A stretch of 36,966 nucleotides of DNA from Acrasis kona (taxonomy: Eukaryota; Heterolobosea; Eutetramitea; Acrasida; Acrasidae). Position 1 is the first letter of the stretch; each line of letters begins with the position of its first letter. The position numbers and the translations under genes are program-made. The stretch covers positions 1 through 36,966 of the forward strand of contig JAOPGA020001480.1 in assembly GCA_026419775.2 (NCBI GenBank), given 5' to 3'. Shown here piece by piece: positions 24,449-33,336 of this stretch. The notes beneath the pieces are model-generated. The model was not told where the DNA came from. It saw only the letters and a list, made by a program, of their open reading frames with translations, and searched no databases.

Positions 24449-24733
24449 TTCTTACAAACAAAGTGGTTGACCAACTTTAAATTGAATTTTTCCCAAGACT
24501 CCTAGGAATTTGCTTGTTATGCAAAGCATCATCAACAGAGAAAATACTAAAATTGTCAAGTAATTTGTATTGTTCAACGAGTGTTTATTTAACAGTTGAC
24601 AAATGATTACAAAAATGTTCCTTACCACATAGTGGACATTGTATCTTTCGCAGCTCTTGGCATGTTGTTGTGACTTGAAAAATTTAAAGAATTACAATCA
24701 AAAAATATAAAATAGGTTTAACGAAAAAAGATT
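24449..24733. other. spacer between the PPR gene and the interrupted tRNA gene
   Basis: AT-rich, with no ORF. It contains the 5' flank of the PPR gene and, at its distal end, the T-run downstream of the tRNA. Nothing else was recognised. Confidence 0.4.
24724..24729 (-). terminator. RNA polymerase III terminator of the tRNA-Glu gene
   Basis: Six consecutive T on the minus strand begin five bases after the tRNA acceptor end. This is the standard Pol III stop and supports a genuine tRNA gene rather than a chance match. Confidence 0.6.
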
Positions 24734-24828
24734 CTTCGATACCGGGAGTTCCGTAAGCAATTTTATCGAACCCGGGTCTAGAGAGTGAGAGTCTCTCATC
24801 CTACATGGCTAGTGAAAACCACTGGACT
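24734..24828 (-). tRNA. tRNA-Glu(CTC), 3' part of a gene interrupted by a 5.4 kb element
   Basis: Read on the minus strand: D-stem GTCC (24827-24824) with GGAT (24801-24798), then anticodon arm AGAGA/TCTCT around loop CTCTCAC. That loop gives anticodon CTC at 24789-24787, for glutamate. T-stem CCGGG and loop TTCGATA follow (24775-24764), then T-stem CCCGG (24746-24742), acceptor TATCGAA (24741-24735) and discriminator G. The CCCGGGTTCGAT and CTCTCAC motifs are typical of tRNA-Glu. No partner for the acceptor lies just upstream. It is found at 30248-30254, beyond the element. Two extra insertions are present: the D-loop is 22 nt instead of about 8, and 17 extra nt (24747-24763) separate the T-loop from its 3' stem. 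They may be unusual introns or decay. The gene is probably non-functional as it stands. Confidence 0.6.
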
Positions 24829-24923
24829 TGTGGTAGAGTGTTATGAATATGTAATATCATGGTAATCTAATAGTCATGAGTTCGATTTTAATCATATCTG
24901 TCAACCTGGTTTGAAATTGTTGA

Positions 24924-24967
24924 ATGGTCGTACCATATCTTCAATAAAAATACAACAGTCGTACTGT
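24924..24967. repeat. outer left pair of 13-bp palindromes
   Basis: ATGGTCGTACCAT (24924-24936) and ACAGTCGTACTGT (24955-24967) are dyads with a common CGT centre and different, self-complementary arms. Starts are 31 bp apart, about three helical turns. They recur at 25031-25043 and 25061-25073, and in opposite orientation at the right end. Confidence 0.85.
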
Positions 24968-25030
24968 ATGTATTGTATAACAGAAAAAGTGGGCACGTCG
25001 CTCCGCCATAGGCGTCGACTCCTCTATGTA

Positions 25031-25073
25031 ATGGTCGTACCATATATATACATATGTATCACAGTCGTACTGT
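25031..25073. repeat. inner left pair of 13-bp palindromes
   Basis: ATGGTCGTACCAT (25031-25043) and ACAGTCGTACTGT (25061-25073), start-to-start 30 bp, repeat the outer pair in the same order and orientation. Likely protein-binding sites or terminal recognition sites of the element; their function is inferred. Confidence 0.85.
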
Positions 25074-25407
25074 GTACAATAATACATCTGAATCCTCGTA
25101 GGATACAGGTCACATCGAAATCTTCCTAGGATACGTTACACCTCAAACAATTACTCACAGTCACTCAAATGAAACCAAAAAGTTAAGGTTTGACATTTCA
25201 CATGAAAAAGTAATCGGTAAAACATATATAGCATTTCACATGGACTTTACTATAAAGTACATTTCAGTATACATCTCACATTACAGAAAAAATGATTACA
25301 GGTTAGAAAGTCACATTTCACACTACAATACACTTGAGCTGTAACAAAAAAGTAGGCACGTCGAACGGCGTCACTCTTTTATCTTGAACCGATGTACTAT
25401 ACTCCAC

Positions 25408-25493
25408 CGAACATGCATTCAACTCATTCTACTATACACAAAACGTTAGCCGAACATGCGTTCAACTCATTCTACTATACACAAAACATTACC
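25408..25493 (+). repeat. two direct 43-bp repeats
   Basis: Units 25408-25450 and 25451-25493 begin CGAACATGCATTCAACTC and CGAACATGCGTTCAACTC and differ at only a few bases. The tail of the unit (ATACACAAAACATTA) appears once more near 25534. A recent tandem duplication within the element. Confidence 0.85.
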
Positions 25494-25535
25494 TCGTATC
25501 CTTTCTGTCGATAAGAGAATAAAAGCAATTTTATA
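25494..25535 (+). repeat. left copy of an internal direct repeat
   Basis: Contains CTGTCGATAAGAGAATAAAA. It matches 29498-29537 in the same orientation, with CTGTCGATAAGGGAGTAAAA there, and both are preceded by TCGTATC. The copies bracket all element genes and so resemble the split direct repeats of DIRS/PAT/Ngaro elements. Confidence 0.7.
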
Positions 25536-25655
25536 CACAAAACATTAACTGACCAAAAATTCATGTACATTAATAAAAAGCCTTAGTTCCCCTTTCAAGA
25601 AGGAACGGCCATATTGGTCAATAACTTGTAAATCATTTACTTTAAAAAGAAACAT

Positions 25656-26632
25656 TTATTCACAAGGAATGTTACCACACATCTCTACAAACTTCCTTAA
25701 TTGAACCTCTTGAGCTGAATACATTATTCTGTATTTACGTAAAATTGAGAGTTCACTACGAATCAAAACCCACAAATCCTTACGTGGTACACCAGAATTA
25801 AAGACTCCAGTCAATTTACTCAGCAACTCATCCGTTAATTCAACTCCGACGCAGTTATTAATCGCATCATACATTTTGGTAATCAATGATGGCTTAATGT
25901 AAACAGAGTGACTATCCATGTTCAATTTGAATCTCAAGTACTCAACTTCTTTAACTGGAGTTAAAACCGACTTTGCATGATTAACGGGCAATCCCCATTC
26001 CTTCAAGACCTTCAATAACTCATTGAGCCGATTTAAACAATCCTCATAAGTAACTCCAACTACCAAAAAGTCATCATAAAATACAAGAATACCTGAATCA
26101 ACTAAATCAGCTATGTTCCTAGTAACAAGTTGGCATACAAAACCTGAGACTCCAACCCCTTGGGGACATTTAGCCCACCTATAGTACTTACCACGGAAAT
26201 AAACACCTAAATATTTACGATGTGATACATGAATTGGAATACAAAAATACGCATCACTTAAATCGACCTTAGTAACATAATTACCAATCAAAACAGTTCG
26301 AACAACATCACTCTGACTTGGAAGGTCAATGTTAAATTTTTCCAACATTTGTGATAACACATATCCATTAACAATCACACGTGGTCTATCAGGTTCGCCT
26401 ATTCTCTCACGGGCATTAAGTGGTAGAAAAATATCAATATCTTCTAAAGAACACTCTTCGAGAATCTTCCGGTCAATCAAACTAATTAACTGTCGGAAAA
26501 CTGCATCCTCTAAATGTTTGGGTATAATATTACGCGGCAAATTATTGTCAACTGGAATTACATCTTCGGGTATTTTAAAAATTAACTTTGCACCGTTTCG
26601 CATGATTTCAAAAGCAGAAAATGGATATTCCC
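25656..26632 (-). CDS. DIRS-type reverse transcriptase (exon 2 of Gag-RT)
   Basis: The fingers/palm are intact. The first catalytic block is KVDLSDAYFCIPIHVSHRKY, the catalytic pair is in FYDDFLVVG, and the thumb-side block is NHAKSVLTPVKEVEYLRF. The DLxDAYF...HRKYL and KSVLTP patterns are those of DIRS-like rather than Ty1, LINE or Penelope RTs. The usual LG before the last strand is LR here. The frame stops about 40 residues after the RT connection region, so RNase H is absent. An ORF starting at the internal ATG 26603 would give 315 aa. A 60-nt intron (26633-26692) instead joins it in frame to the upstream Gag-like ORF, giving exactly 578 codons. Confidence 0.8.
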
Positions 26633-26663
26633 CTAAACATTAAAATTTTATTATTATTGTTAA

Positions 26664-27449
26664 TTAAACATAATACGAATCATCATACGCACCTCTATTG
26701 GGTGGACTCCTTAGTTTGTTAGACATTCCTCCTTGTCTTGGCCTATAGTAGGGATCATAAGGCATGGAATACCTTGCTTGCTGCATCATCATCATTGGTA
26801 CAGTCATTTGTGGGATTACGATAGGATCTTTCGAGGAAAAATCCGGGATACTTGAGTCATAACTATCATCAACCAACGAAATGGTATCGTCAGTTGTGTT
26901 CCATTGTTGAGAAGCTTTAAGATAACTAGCACAATCCTTAACGCATGTTTTATTGTTGAGGAAATATAGAGGGTGAATGGGGTTAGTGTCTCGGTAGTGA
27001 TGACAAAAACTCAAAAACCTGGCAAGCCCAAAATGATTAATAAGAGCTGTCTTTCTCGCTCTCCAAATGTTCAACTTGAAACACCATTGTGGTGCGAGAT
27101 TATGTCTGGATTCATTTGCAACTTTGATCATTTCGTCTAGTTTCAGTTTAGGGTCAAACCATTCGAGGTTTCTTAACACTTCACGATCGACTAATTTGGT
27201 CAGTTTTTCATCGACATCTTGAACAGCCTTATCAATGGTAGCATGTAACTGTAGCAGATTGATCACATCACCTTGTAGGGAAGTGATATTCTCACGGACA
27301 CTCTCGATCGTAGCTGGGGTAACGACTCCTTGTTGGAGCGTATTAATGTCTGAACGTAGACCAGTCAGTTGTTCACGAATAGCAGCGAAGGGGCTAGTAA
27401 GTTGGGACATATCAATGTCAGTATCTTCAAAGATTAGCTCTTGAGACAT
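26664..27449 (-). CDS. Gag-like protein of the element, 261 aa when unspliced
   Basis: The ORF starts MSQELIFEDTDIDMSQLTSP. Residues 20-95 form a coiled coil (heptads in LRSDINTLQQGVVTPATIES and LLQLHATIDKAVQDVDEKLT). Then comes a central globular part with RARKTALINHFGLARFLSFC and a Tyr/Pro/Arg-rich tail (YDPYYRPRQGG). This layout fits Gag-like ORF1 proteins of DIRS elements; no zinc knuckle is seen. A donor at 26692 (GTGCGT) lets the last nine codons be replaced by the RT exon. Intron retention would therefore give Gag alone, and splicing would give Gag-RT. Confidence 0.6.
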   Translation of the reverse strand: MSQELIFEDTDIDMSQLTSPFAAIREQLTGLRSDINTLQQGVVTPATIESVRENITSLQGDVINLLQLHATIDKAVQDVDEKLTKLVDREVLRNLEWFDPKLKLDEMIKVANESRHNLAPQWCFKLNIWRARKTALINHFGLARFLSFCHHYRDTNPIHPLYFLNNKTCVKDCASYLKASQQWNTTDDTISLVDDSYDSSIPDFSSKDPIVIPQMTVPMMMMQQARYSMPYDPYYRPRQGGMSNKLRSPPNRGAYDDSYYV

Positions 27450-27771
27450 GGTTTTGTTTCTAGAAGAATGAATGTATGTTCATTATACAATAGCTTTTTA
27501 TACAGAAGCGGAGATCAATCGAGATTTAACGAACATTACTGAATGGATAAAATTGTATAGTAGATAACGAGCTAAAAATTGTAGAATTCATACATAGTCA
27601 CTAGATTAAAAATTTTTTCGTAAAACACTTGATCACACACAAATATAGCAAGTCTAATATTGTAAAATGGAAAACACTATTATTGTAACACAAATATAGC
27701 AAGTCTAAAACAAGTTAGTAGGTTATTACTTGTTATAAACGATTGAATTTGATCACCAATAAAAATAAATA
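27450..27771. promoter_or_regulatory. divergent promoter region inside the element, with a direct repeat
   Basis: This 322-bp spacer separates the divergent Gag and GIY-YIG-like A genes, so it must hold promoters for both. CAAATATAGCAAGTCTAA occurs twice exactly (27640-27657 and 27691-27708), spaced 51 bp, and nearer the plus-strand gene. The repeats are good candidates for transcription-factor sites. No ORF was found. Confidence 0.5.
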
Positions 27772-28431
27772 ATGAGTCTGCACTTCTGTGATTTGACTGA
27801 TAATAATCACCTTGACGAAGATATGAGTAGGAGAAGACATTTTGTCAGAAAAAGTGTTAATCATATTTCGAACTTGTGTATGGAACATTTATCGGATGAT
27901 GGAAATTTCCCACTTCAAAGATTTCAAACCTCAAGATTATATTATATTGATGGAGATTATTTAAAGTATCAAGAGTTTGATGGTAAAGAATTTTCGGACC
28001 CAGTCGTAGAAAAGAGTGCTTTCATTACAGATATGTATTGTGAACTACCATATTTGTGGGAAATTCTAGAATGCTACGAAGTAGAAGAATTTTATTCTGT
28101 TGATACCATAAAGCCATATTTATATGCGTTTGTGGAACATTTGACTGATGGTTCCTTAGCTATTTATGTCGGATCTAGTGGTAAGATCAATAGAGTCTAT
28201 AATAGATTTTCATTATTAAAATCCAAACCGGATGACGGTGGACTACTAGTTTTTGCTGCAGGTTCAGTTTCTAAGTATTTTGTACCTGGGGTTTTAATTC
28301 TCGGACAATTTGATACTATCGAGGAAGCCAAAGAGGCAGAAATGGAATATGTCAATTACATTATCGATCACTTTTCTGAAGAAAAAGGACATGATTCGTA
28401 TCATATCGTGAATAAAACTTTGAGTTATTAA
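27772..28431 (+). CDS. GIY-YIG-like nuclease ORF A, 219 aa
   Basis: The ORF starts MSLHFCDLTDNNHLDEDMSR and is acidic at first. The C-terminal half reads LYAFVEHLTDGSLAIYVGSS followed by GKINRVYNRF. This matches the GIY-YIG pattern: (G/A)(I/V/F)Y-x10-YVG, then a catalytic-type Arg. A Glu-bearing helix (EEAKEAEMEYVNYI) then sits about where the family's metal-binding Glu is expected. The first half is unassigned. If active, it could be the DNA-cutting enzyme of the element. Plus strand, opposite to Gag-RT, and convergent with ORF B (49 bp apart). The call is by motif only. Confidence 0.5.
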   Translation: MSLHFCDLTDNNHLDEDMSRRRHFVRKSVNHISNLCMEHLSDDGNFPLQRFQTSRLYYIDGDYLKYQEFDGKEFSDPVVEKSAFITDMYCELPYLWEILECYEVEEFYSVDTIKPYLYAFVEHLTDGSLAIYVGSSGKINRVYNRFSLLKSKPDDGGLLVFAAGSVSKYFVPGVLILGQFDTIEEAKEAEMEYVNYIIDHFSEEKGHDSYHIVNKTLSY

Positions 28432-28480
28432 TTACTTGAGATTAATTAATTAAATGTTGTAGTGGTAACAAAAAATTCTT

Positions 28481-29350
28481 TTATTTTTTAATGTTGGTAA
28501 AGTACATCGTGTCTTTCCACTGATTATGCTTTTCAGCACATTTATTCATGTACATTGATTCGTTCATCTTTTTGTCCAAAATGTTTTTGTATGTTTTAAT
28601 TAAGAATGCTCCGTTAATCATATTATTTTTGTTACGGTTAGCTGCTACAACATTTATGAGGTATCCACCAGTATGTTTGATGTCGTCCATTTTCTTGAAA
28701 TGATCCATGAATCTGTCAAGGCTTCCCTCGCCGATATACGTGGCGTACATTCCGTCTCCTAACGGTTGAATAATGGCGTATACGCAATATTTATGTTCGT
28801 CTAGTTGTTTTTGAGAAATCTTCTCAAGACCCACCAATTTTTGTAATAATTGTTCACATGTTTCGATCGGGCCATTTCTGTCAACATTTTTTGTTGAGAC
28901 AATGTTTCCATTAGTATTACGGTAAAATAATGTTAACATTCTTCCTTTGAACTTTGGTTCTTGGAGTGTTTGGTCCACAATGTATTTCTTATGGAATTGT
29001 GCTGAAGAATCTCTTATTGGGCAGAACTTTGCGTTTTGTTTCACTTGTTTTGTGAAAGATCTTCCAATCCAATTCTTTTGTGGTTTGTAGACGTAGCTGT
29101 AGTCGAATTTTCCATTTGTGATTGGAATACCCATGTAGTAGTCCCCACTTGGTTTTGGGACTTCCTGTCTTGTTTTCTTGTCATATATAGACAAGACTAG
29201 TTTCCTCCAATACGATTTGTAATCGTCGGTGTCTAATTTTGGGGGCACCTGCCATTTTTTGTTTTGGTGAGTTCTTAGTAAAACATTCATGTGTTTATCA
29301 TTAAATCTCTCGTATATATGTTCATCAGAATGGTATCTGCTAGGAGGCAT
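28481..29350 (-). CDS. GIY-YIG-like ORF B, 289 aa, possibly catalytically degenerate
   Basis: The ORF starts MPPSRYHSDEHIYERFNDKH with a basic, Lys-rich N-terminal half. Near residue 190 it reads YCVYAIIQPLGDGMYATYIG and then EGSLDRFMDHFKK. It aligns with ORF A in spacing and sequence (VYAIIQPL-DG--ATYIGEG-R against LYAFVEHLTDGSLAIYVGSS-R). GGYLINVVAA follows, matching GGLLVFAAGS of ORF A. The Glu helix of ORF A has no clear equivalent here (GAFLIKTYKNIL), so activity may be lost. The two proteins are thus diverged relatives with different N-terminal halves, one per strand. Confidence 0.45.
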   Translation of the reverse strand: MPPSRYHSDEHIYERFNDKHMNVLLRTHQNKKWQVPPKLDTDDYKSYWRKLVLSIYDKKTRQEVPKPSGDYYMGIPITNGKFDYSYVYKPQKNWIGRSFTKQVKQNAKFCPIRDSSAQFHKKYIVDQTLQEPKFKGRMLTLFYRNTNGNIVSTKNVDRNGPIETCEQLLQKLVGLEKISQKQLDEHKYCVYAIIQPLGDGMYATYIGEGSLDRFMDHFKKMDDIKHTGGYLINVVAANRNKNNMINGAFLIKTYKNILDKKMNESMYMNKCAEKHNQWKDTMYFTNIKK

Positions 29351-29497
29351 TTGTGTTTGTGTGTAATTAGTACTCGTAAAATATTTCTCTTACTTTTTAA
29401 ATAAGGAAATAATCAACCGTAGGTCTTTTCAACTGTAGTTTTTAATGAATTACTATTTTAAGATAAATTAAGATATTAATTGACCACATGGCCACTC

Positions 29498-29537
29498 TCG
29501 TATCGTTCTGTCGATAAGGGAGTAAAAGCATTTTATT
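29498..29537 (+). repeat. right copy of the internal direct repeat
   Basis: TCGTATCG then CTGTCGATAAGGGAGTAAAA, matching 25494-25535 in the same orientation with a few differences. About 4.0 kb separates the two copies. Confidence 0.7.
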
Positions 29538-29779
29538 AATGTACAAATTTTAAAGTGGTCATATAACTGAAATCAACGTTTTTTCAATAAAATTACAATT
29601 CACTGTAAAATGTTCTTCATTCTTGATGATTTACCAATTCATCCTAATTACTCTCTAATTTTGATTGAAATGATTTCGGTTTATTTTCTTGTATCAAATG
29701 TCTAAATTGTTTTTTCTGTGTAATGTTCCTTAACATTCGATGGTCGATGTCGGCGTAGCGGACATCTACCTGAGCGCAG

Positions 29780-29986
29780 GGCTTGTCCCTGCAATTAAAG
29801 TGGATTAGTTATTCACGCATGGCTTGTCCCTGCAATTAAAGTGGATTAGTTATTCACGCATGGCTTGTCCTTGCAATTAAAGTGGATTAGTTATTCTCGC
29901 ACGGCTTGTCCCTGCAATTAAAGTGGATTAGTTATTCACGCATGGCTTGTCCTTGCAATAAAAGCAATTGTTCAGCTATTCACGCA
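29780..29986 (+). repeat. 41-bp tandem repeat array, about five units
   Basis: Units start at 29780, 29821, 29862, 29903 and 29944, each opening GGCTTGTCC(C/T)TGCAA and containing AGTGGATTAGTTATTC. Units 1-4 are nearly identical and exactly 41 bp. Unit 5 is diverged, and a further GGCTTGTCTG fragment begins at 29995. The repeats are head to tail without spacers, so this is not a CRISPR-like array. Confidence 0.9.
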
Positions 29987-30031
29987 TTTAATGAGGCTTG
30001 TCTGTGATAATAAAGTGGTTTAATTTAGTAT

Positions 30032-30110
30032 ACAGTACGACTGTATAACAGTTAGTTTATAGATATAATGGTACGACCATTTATAATATTATTATTAACA
30101 GTACGACTGT
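30032..30110. repeat. three right-end 13-bp palindromes in inverted orientation
   Basis: ACAGTACGACTGT (30032-30044), ATGGTACGACCAT (30068-30080) and ACAGTACGACTGT (30098-30110). The centre reads ACG instead of CGT, so the set faces the left set. Start-to-start distances are 36 and 30 bp. Confidence 0.85.
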
Positions 30111-30240
30111 TCAATGTATATATGTATGTATACAAACCTTAAGCCGTCCCGTTTGGGCCGGCGCCTTCCTGTTGTCAGATAGACTTATGTTATGATACTG
30201 CTAGACACACGAGTCTACAGTTGGTCAACCTGATTCCATT

Positions 30241-30254
30241 TGGACTATATCGAA
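30241..30254 (-). tRNA. tRNA-Glu 5' end: acceptor strand and start of D-stem
   Basis: On the minus strand TTCGATA (30254-30248), TA (positions 8-9) and GTCC (D-stem) follow each other exactly as a tRNA needs. TTCGATA pairs at all seven positions with TATCGAA of the 3' part at 24735-24741. The last six bases, TGGACT on the plus strand, are the duplicated target site. The next base inward belongs to the element. Confidence 0.6.
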
Positions 30255-31709: not shown

Positions 31710-33336
31710 TTATAGTTTACTAACTTGACTGGTCCTGAGCAATCTCCTTAGTATTTTTCCGGTTGCACTTTTCGGTATGCTGTCAATAAACTGGACCATC
31801 CTTATTTTTTTTTGTGGATTGACGTGCTGGGCAATATAACTTATCACCTGCTCTTCGTTCAAGTCGTGTCCTTGTTTTTTGACCACAAAAGCCTTCGGTA
31901 ATTCGCCTGCAGCTTCATCAGGTACACCAACAACGGCACAATCTTGGATACATTCATGCTTTAAAAGTAGACCTTCCAACTCTGCTGGTGGAACTTGAAA
32001 GCCTTTATACTTTATTAATTCTTTAACACGGTCAACAACATATACATAGCCATCCTTATCAATGTAACCAATATCACCAGTATGTAACCAACCGTCTACA
32101 ATTGTGCTCTGAGTTGCTTCTTCATTATTCAAATAACCCAACATTGCACTAGGTGTTTTAAAAGCCAGTTCTCCTTCTTTATTGTATCCCTCCACATCAC
32201 TACCAGTCAAGTCAATAATTTTCATTTGCACATTAGGCATCAAGATTCCTGCACTTCCATCACGTGCCTTGTGAGATTCAGCGCAAGTAACTGCTGTCGC
32301 TAATTCAGTCATGCCGTAGGCCTGCACAATATCTACACCAGGAAGTCGTTGATGAACAATGGAAGTTAATTCACCACTAAGAGGTGCTGCACCACAGAAT
32401 AAACGTTTCAATGAAGACAAGTTGTAATGATCAAGGTTTGGATGTTTGGCAAATTGTAGCATGACAGGAGGAACTATTTTTGCATGAGTTATTTTATACT
32501 TTTCAATCAATTTCAAAAAAACATCAAAATCAAATTTCTCCACATTTACAATGGTTGCTCCAGAGTACAGTGACTGAAGCATGATAAGAACTAAAAAACA
32601 ACATTCAGAATGATATTATAAAGACAATCTTACTTTGTCCGTAAATGTGAAAATAAGGAAGAAATCCAATCATTACGTCCTTGTCAGTGACTTGACCGTA
32701 AACTTCTGCTTGGCACAAATTGGAAATAATGTTGTAGTGAGAGATGAGAACACCTTTATTAACACCAGTGGTGCCGCTTGAAAAAGGAATACAAACAATG
32801 TGTTTTTTTGGATTTTTGACATTTTTTGGTAGCAGGTGAGTGACGTTTATATCTTTTAGTAGGGAACTTATAGGCAGAGTGTTTTTGCTAGAGTCGCCTC
32901 CTATTACAAAGACTTTTTCGACACTAGTGCCAGTTATTGACTTTAGCACCTTCTCCTGATTTGCAGTGTTTGTGACAATAAATCTGGCGTTTGAAGTAAT
33001 CAATTGTTTTTTGATTTCTTCGTCAGTATAAAGTGGGTTGATAGTCGAGCTCGCGCCTCCGCTGCGGGCAATACCTAAATATAAGATTGGATATAGCGTT
33101 ACGTTAGGTAAAAGTATTGCCATGACCTGTCCACATCCAAATTCATGCTCATTTATTAGGTTAAAAACGACATTATGAATGAGTTGTCTTGTTTCTCCAA
33201 AAGTAATCACACTCCCATCGGCTGAATCTATCATGAAAGGCTTATCTCGATGACGGTGCACCTTAGATAATACGAAATCTGTCAAGGACACATCGTCGGG
33301 TATATTTACGCTATCAAATCTACTTTGATGTATCAT
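31710..33336 (-). CDS. 4-coumarate-CoA ligase-like acyl-CoA synthetase, peroxisomal, 527 aa
   Basis: This ANL-superfamily adenylate-forming enzyme activates a carboxylic acid with ATP and joins it to CoA. Two exons (33336-32634 and 32590-31710) with a 43-nt intron give 528 codons. The AMP-binding P-loop is CIPFSSGTTGVNKGVLISH. YFHIYGQ leads into the intron. Motif GAAPLSGELTS follows, then QAYGMTELATAV and GWLHTGDIGYIDKDGYVYVV, and the hinge DRVKELIKYKGFQVPPAELE. The catalytic Lys motif is PKSATGKILRRLLR. The C-terminus is SKL, a type 1 peroxisomal signal. The nearest relatives are 4CL-like fatty-acyl or phenylpropanoid-type ligases; the substrate is unknown. The true ATG is 33336, since the upstream TTG frame has none. 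Confidence 0.9.

Follow-up and report, generated by a model that had tools for sequence, protein, structure and literature searches.

What kind of mobile element lodges inside a tRNA gene while encoding a reverse transcriptase (RT), and how would it reach so exact a position? This question is raised by a 36,966-nucleotide stretch of Acrasis kona DNA (contig JAOPGA020001480.1; hereafter the window), in which a 5412-bp element splits a tRNA-Glu(CTC) gene. The same insertion point is occupied in five genes of the genome, a 6-bp repeat borders the insertion at the four fully readable sites, and shorter, internally deleted copies sit at the same target. We consider it probable that this is a site-specific, RT-encoding element that inserts in the A box of tRNA-Glu(CTC) genes, where two of its own proteins, A and B, would nick the target and a DNA copy made by the RT would be joined.

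The element splits a tRNA-Glu gene at the A box

Read along the minus strand, the locus runs from the tRNA start (30254) through AGTCCA, 5412 bp of element (30240-24829) and a second AGTCCA (24828-24823) to the gene end (24734) and a run of six T (T6). On the forward strand, the same hexamer is read directly as TGGACT at both 24823-24828 and 30241-30246. The 5' and 3' acceptor strands of the split gene form 7/7 pairs.

A preliminary description, made from the letters alone, had reported these coordinates, the split tRNA-Glu gene and the TGGACT duplication, and direct reading confirms all of them to the base. It had also located the missing 5' acceptor strand at 30241-30254, with 7/7 pairing to the 3' acceptor, and an RNA polymerase III (Pol III) stop past the 3' end; both are present, the latter at 24724-24729. 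It had put the insertion in the D stem, which calls for a correction: the duplicated AGTCCA corresponds to tRNA nt 9-14, where the D arm begins, and belongs to the Pol III A box (Table 1).

The same site is filled or empty elsewhere in the genome

We searched the 37.35-Mb assembly that contains the window, where the window copy is C770, by an exact-pattern census with reversed patterns as controls. The first 14 nt of the tRNA-Glu gene, TTCGATATAGTCCA, occur at 16 exact places (reversed control, 0). Eleven are uninterrupted and five are joined, at the same base, to the end of the element on the side of open reading frame (ORF) A, which we call the A side. These five filled sites are C247, C351, C770, C812 and C834. 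The A-side end itself, GTCCAAATGGAATCAGGTTGACC, was searched with 2 mismatches allowed and occurs at six places, none of which needed a mismatch (control, 0); 5/6 lie directly on TTCGATATAGTCCA. The sixth, in C58, belongs to an older copy, about 90% identical and with remains of the same genes, and adjoins TTCAATATC, a degenerate target with 7/9 matches (P about 0.003).

The opposite, RT-side end is readable with its flank in four copies, all of which read AGTCCAGTGG with the tRNA resuming at AGTCCA. The AGTCCA duplication is present in 4/4 sites where both junctions are readable. A further pattern, AGTCCAGTGGTTTTC, has 16 places (reversed control, 2), comprising the 11 uninterrupted genes, four interrupted genes and a decayed fragment in C556. 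That fragment (C556:15818, locus L120) has a 5' part short of two bases, and no element lies beside it in the 261 bp read. The preliminary description had proposed that the element is targeted to tRNA-Glu genes and that other copies should share the site and the 6-bp repeat, with an uninterrupted gene resembling the joined halves elsewhere. Copies and intact genes of this kind were found, and the census of ends together with the uninterrupted copies supports such targeting.

The filled sites differ from one another in the 60 nt upstream. C825 is the empty counterpart of filled C351: with the flanks joined, 648/721 aligned columns are identical, and AGTCCA occurs there once. The empty site nearest to C812 is C254, 98.8% identical over 1156 bp upstream; around the gene the two agree in 429/832 columns and are not a clean allele pair. 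From these alignments, C351 and C812 look separately hit.

Three copies retain both ends and lack the middle, namely C812 (1072 bp with one duplication), C834 (1733 bp) and C351 (983 bp). C247, a fourth short copy, has the A side, and the contig start cuts it near the other end. The four internal deletion joints show overlaps of 8, 2, 12 and 14 nt; template switching during reverse transcription could be another source of such joints. The RT-side ends of the copies are 98.9-99.6% identical. Fragments also occur: the RT side is missing in C58, the last 28 bp of the A side in C224, and the first 113 bp of the RT side in C36, which lies at a contig end.

The target gene carries loop inserts

We aligned 15 tRNA-Glu copies, 11 intact and four filled with both halves (C247, whose contig begins inside the element, was omitted). 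Over nt 1-73, every column outside inserts in the D and T loops is invariant. This suggests that the insertions are young, because the interrupted genes are as invariant there as the others. The D loop has about 14 extra nucleotides and the T loop about 17, in the intact copies too, and those of the T loop differ between filled genes. Within-gene variation (intact copies L105-L115 among the 15 aligned) is confined to the inserts, as expected of introns at atypical positions, and we regard the extra nucleotides as candidate introns of this kind. Atypical introns in tRNA D and T arms are described in the red alga Cyanidioschyzon merolae (PMC9602550).

The tRNA finders miss this gene because of the inserts. 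ARAGORN called 0 genes in the window and 0/11 intact tRNA-Glu loci, and Rfam showed no tRNA in the two intact loci tried. When both inserts were removed from the joined halves of the window gene, ARAGORN called tRNA-Glu(CTC) for 2815/15360 boundary choices and no other tRNA, with 0 calls in shuffled controls (n=5). The preliminary description had suggested running a tRNA finder on the joined halves; with the inserts kept, ARAGORN made no call.

Extra nucleotides in the D loop are also found in 7/20 other tRNA loci fetched; L073, L075, L076, L077, L090 and L091 are tRNA-Lys-like and L074 is tRNA-Arg-like (anticodons by eye). Separately, 5/15 tRNA-Glu loci (L049, L051, L105, L108, L109) are flanked on both sides by inverted pieces of a C666-type terminal repeat (L069:4198-4883) with their outer ends outward, and L106 and L107 on the upstream side only. 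The outermost end is reached on only one side per locus. Some tRNA-Glu genes seem, from this arrangement, to sit inside another mobile element.

Genes of the element

The four largest ORFs, of 220-327 aa, fill the middle of the element. Compared with solved structures, the RT has 18 relatives at E<=0.1, and 18/18 are retroviral RTs by molecule name (no tree). ORF C, named by position only, gave no domain above its cut-off. Across the four ORFs, Pfam and NCBIfam recognized no DDE transposase, tyrosine recombinase, integrase or RNase H. Between the element ends there are no long direct terminal repeats (longest such pair, 29 nt).

No relative was found in the protein, viral or prokaryotic collections searched, a scope that excludes eukaryotic repeat libraries. 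The RT, the RT alignment and the ORF B alignment had no match, at the thresholds used, in the protein collection, whose eukaryote share is uncertain. Against viral and prokaryotic contigs, the RT alignment gave 37 and 174 pattern matches, respectively, none confirmed.

ORFs A and B as likely GIY-YIG nucleases

A and B have a common C-terminal domain, and both are likely diverged GIY-YIG nucleases. In 11 aligned A/B domains from five families, Y5, Y19-x-G21, E77 and N101 are invariant and R28 is nearly so. When I-TevI, YhbQ and UvrC are added to the alignment, Y19, G21 and E77 are still invariant and Y5 nearly. The domains carry the catalytic signature of the GIY-YIG superfamily (Y, YxG, R, E and usually N), and profile support is modest: hhalign relates the A/B domain to I-TevI at P 9.3e-5 (HNH control, 0.6) and to a three-member GIY-YIG set at P 0.001. 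B looks to be under selection, as the ratio of nonsynonymous to synonymous substitution rates (dN/dS), computed with two scripts, is 0.25 or 0.22 for C9/C317 and 0.38 or 0.41 for window/C58.

Several comparisons count against this assignment. The catalytic R lies one column off in I-TevI and UvrC, and the N of I-TevI is not co-aligned (by eye). Pfam GIY-YIG is touched by 2/11 members (best E 0.024) and LEM-3 GIY-YIG by 1/11 (0.005), while unrelated Pfam families score 0.04-0.08 on the same domains. Window B alone had no match in Pfam, and none of the three places listed by a genome scan with Pfam GIY-YIG is an A/B gene. A search of solved structures with the A1 profile returned none at E<=10. 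For A, spore photoproduct lyase is matched below threshold (E 0.001), and the single-sequence structure of ORF B, with a predicted local distance difference test score (pLDDT) of 36, is unusable for fold. For B pairs with few changes, dN/dS ranges over 0.25-3.3.

Table 1. The interrupted tRNA-Glu gene and the element in window coordinates
Feature	Position	Strand	Remarks
Inserted element	24829-30240	minus	5412 bp; RT sense in same direction as tRNA
tRNA-Glu 5' acceptor strand TTCGATA (nt 1-7)	30248-30254	minus	T8 at 30247
Target duplication AGTCCA (6 bp), first copy (tRNA nt 9-14)	30241-30246	minus	
Target duplication AGTCCA (6 bp), second copy	24823-24828	minus	
Remainder of tRNA-Glu(CTC), nt 9-73	24734-24828	minus	3' acceptor 24735-24741; base 73 at 24734
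Extra nucleotides within tRNA-Glu remainder	D loop ~24803-24816; T loop ~24748-24764	minus	
T6 past tRNA 3' end	24724-24729	minus	Pol III terminator-like
RT	25659-26639	minus	327 aa; reverse transcriptase, PF00078 E 1.8e-17
ORF C	26667-27479	minus	271 aa stop to stop; Gag-position protein (named by position only)
ORF B	27769-28428	plus	220 aa stop to stop; likely GIY-YIG-type nuclease domain, C-terminal, 28111-28428; convergent with A
ORF A	28484-29389	minus	302 aa stop to stop; likely GIY-YIG-type nuclease domain, C-terminal, 28484-28792
Subterminal inverted repeats, RT side	24923-25084		partners at 30021-30127
Subterminal inverted repeats, A side	30021-30127		
56-nt motif common to other RT-bearing repeats of the genome	29737-29792	plus	core 29746-29764
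41-bp tandem repeats	29775-29979	plus	

Relatives share a four-gene cassette

Genome matches number at least 124 for the RT, at least 22 for A and at least 15 for B. Among the loci read, the order and orientation A, B (convergent), C, RT recurs in the window, C666, C132 and C9, and a broken form is present in C38. C402, in which the RT is lost, has terminal inverted repeats (539 columns, 93% identical) that lie directly inside direct copies of GTTGTAACG, at 521-529 and 3741-3749 of L072. This family therefore appears to integrate with a 9-bp target duplication. Because the same 9 bp are found at the A-side end of C497 with different flanks, the 9-bp site may be preferred in C402 and C497 too.

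Identity between C9 and C317 changes abruptly near L071:2900, between B and C. C and RT are 96-100% identical (17 blocks of 100 bp), whereas B and the end of A, in the 10 preceding blocks, are 58-82% identical, indicating that the A/B and C/RT halves recombine. Another RT-bearing repeat, L027 (C843:1-2974), has a 450-bp inverted repeat, 99.8% identical, at 1-450 and 1885-2333, with the first arm at the contig start.

Proposed mechanism and alternatives

In the route that we consider probable, A and B would be the targeting nucleases, placing two nicks 6 nt apart in the tRNA-Glu A box. The RT would make a full-length DNA copy to be joined to the cut, and fill-in or repair of the stagger would leave AGTCCA on both sides. 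Copies lacking the genes would have moved in trans. The multicopy tRNA-Glu genes would offer a tolerable landing site, as argued for Dada, a group of DNA transposons discussed below.

A broader generalization is more doubtful, and we offer it tentatively. The window element and its relatives might form a new superfamily of retroelements with a retroviral-side RT and without recognizable RNase H or integrase, which would integrate by a dedicated GIY-YIG pair; A and B would each nick a single strand of a target particular to the family. The length of the duplication (6 bp at tRNA-Glu, 9 bp for the C402 family) would follow from the distance between the two nicks, and A/B could act as an exchangeable targeting module coupled to a C/RT module for replication.

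Besides the points raised on the nuclease assignment, other observations speak against the proposed route. That A and B cut the tRNA site is a prediction, and the GIY-YIG enzymes known to us leave short staggers, not 6 nt. A and B could be passengers, because the A/B and C/RT halves recombine, and in C497 A adjoins the RT, with neither B nor C intervening. The window element family yielded a single full-length copy. The RT also has a weak match to group II intron RTs (NCBIfam, E 5e-4, far below cut-off).

At its target, the element resembles Dada DNA transposons, which are described as inserting inside tRNA genes at A box nt 8-13, with duplications of 6-7 bp and with copies that lack internal parts; subterminal inverted repeats are reported for Dada-U1, Dada hosts include the protist Perkinsus marinus, and the main text of the two papers has 0 occurrences of the term tRNA-Glu (PMC3706591, PMC8869645). 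A-box insertion in a multicopy small-RNA gene, a 6-bp duplication, deleted derivatives (C812, C834, C351, C247) and subterminal inverted repeats are all seen here, and a DDE transposase encoded elsewhere might mobilize the ends, with the RT and nuclease genes as cargo. We think this unlikely. Dada carries a DDE transposase, whereas our element encodes an RT, a Gag-position protein and two putative GIY-YIG-type proteins; no DDE-like match was found in the four ORFs with Pfam and NCBIfam (no genome search with the Dada transposase was made). The six A-side ends are all those of the window copy, of its short derivatives or of C58, and families whose ends are different also have the four-gene cassette. 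The duplication is offset by one nt, covering nt 9-14 rather than 8-13. At its target the element thus behaves as Dada does, but we do not classify it as Dada. In enzymes, the nearest systems are Penelope-like elements, which combine an RT and a GIY-YIG nuclease in one protein (PMC1564403). A route of this type, in which the GIY-YIG enzyme nicks the target and the RT copies RNA straight into the site, would draw on the same combination predicted here, but we find it improbable. The domains reside here in separate genes, with A and B convergent, the solved relatives of the RT are retroviral by name, and the relative C402 has inverted repeats of about 540 bp with a 9-bp duplication. For Penelope-like elements, kinship of the RT with telomerase RT is expected; the names of the solved relatives at E<=0.1 here are retroviral in 18/18 cases (no tree). 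Fragments without one end exist (C58, C224, C36), which decay or contig ends explain equally. Target-primed copying often loses one end, but 4/4 copies found through the tRNA-joined RT-side end, the window included, keep the A-side end. Intact second ends are somewhat easier to explain if a double-stranded copy is integrated than by target-primed reverse transcription of the one-ended kind.

DIRS and other tyrosine-recombinase retrotransposons have a retroviral-side RT, a Gag-position ORF and inverted repeats. The window element has an RT closest to retroviral RTs and separate Gag-position and RT genes, and its relative C402 has inverted repeats, so that a DIRS-type retroelement with a lost or hidden tyrosine recombinase comes into question. 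We judge this quite improbable, since neither a tyrosine recombinase nor an RNase H was recognized in the ORFs and since 6- and 9-bp target duplications are observed, which, to our knowledge, DIRS elements are not expected to leave. It is harder still to credit that there is no targeting, a single tRNA insertion having spread by duplication of the tRNA-plus-element block. Inverted-repeat blocks do enclose some tRNA-Glu genes, and some tRNA-Glu loci occur in duplicate, but filled genes are unlike one another in the upstream 60 nt and in their T-loop inserts, an empty counterpart of C351 exists, and the best upstream match of C812 is empty as well. Dictyostelium TRE and yeast Ty1 and Ty3 are likewise retroelements that land at tRNA genes, but they land next to them, with other integration apparatus, whereas the present element inserts inside the gene. 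It also differs from long terminal repeat (LTR) retrotransposons in having no long direct terminal repeats and no integrase match.

The preliminary description had called insertion into the D stem unusual. Dada provides a precedent near the A box (nt 8-13, with 6-bp duplications), and it is the gene content that is unusual: target and footprint are already known from Dada, while the machinery differs from that of Dada, Penelope and DIRS. Among the literature matches listed, which do not extend to Repbase or to most subscription papers, none showed an RT element that sits inside tRNA genes and has its GIY-YIG genes free-standing. If insertion by the element's own nucleases and RT is correct, strict within-tRNA insertion, apparently without the DDE transposase of Dada, would amount to a convergent solution for landing safely. 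Integration of a retroelement by GIY-YIG nucleases would become a directly testable idea, and a compact nuclease pair with a fixed tRNA-Glu A-box target would be of interest for site-specific integration tools.

Noncoding parts of the element and neighboring genes

The 56-nt motif of Table 1 has a core, GATGTCGGCGTAGCGGACA, found at 41 places in the genome, 34 exact and seven with one mismatch (reversed control, 0). The proteins of other RT repeats with this motif are 33-44% identical to those of the window. In C843 and C671 the RT gene is flanked on either side by the motif in inverted orientation. The two main variants of the motif differ in their folds, and comparison with Rfam gave no convincing family (best E 0.83). 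At the RT-side end of the element, a weak tRNA-like stretch with box A/B-like sequences lies at 24824-24900 on the plus strand (12.3 bits, E 5).

Elsewhere in the window, a GT..AG intron of about 43 nt splits an AMP-binding gene (about 32591-32633, minus strand; by eye), and mitochondrial carrier and Integrator subunit domains are also present.

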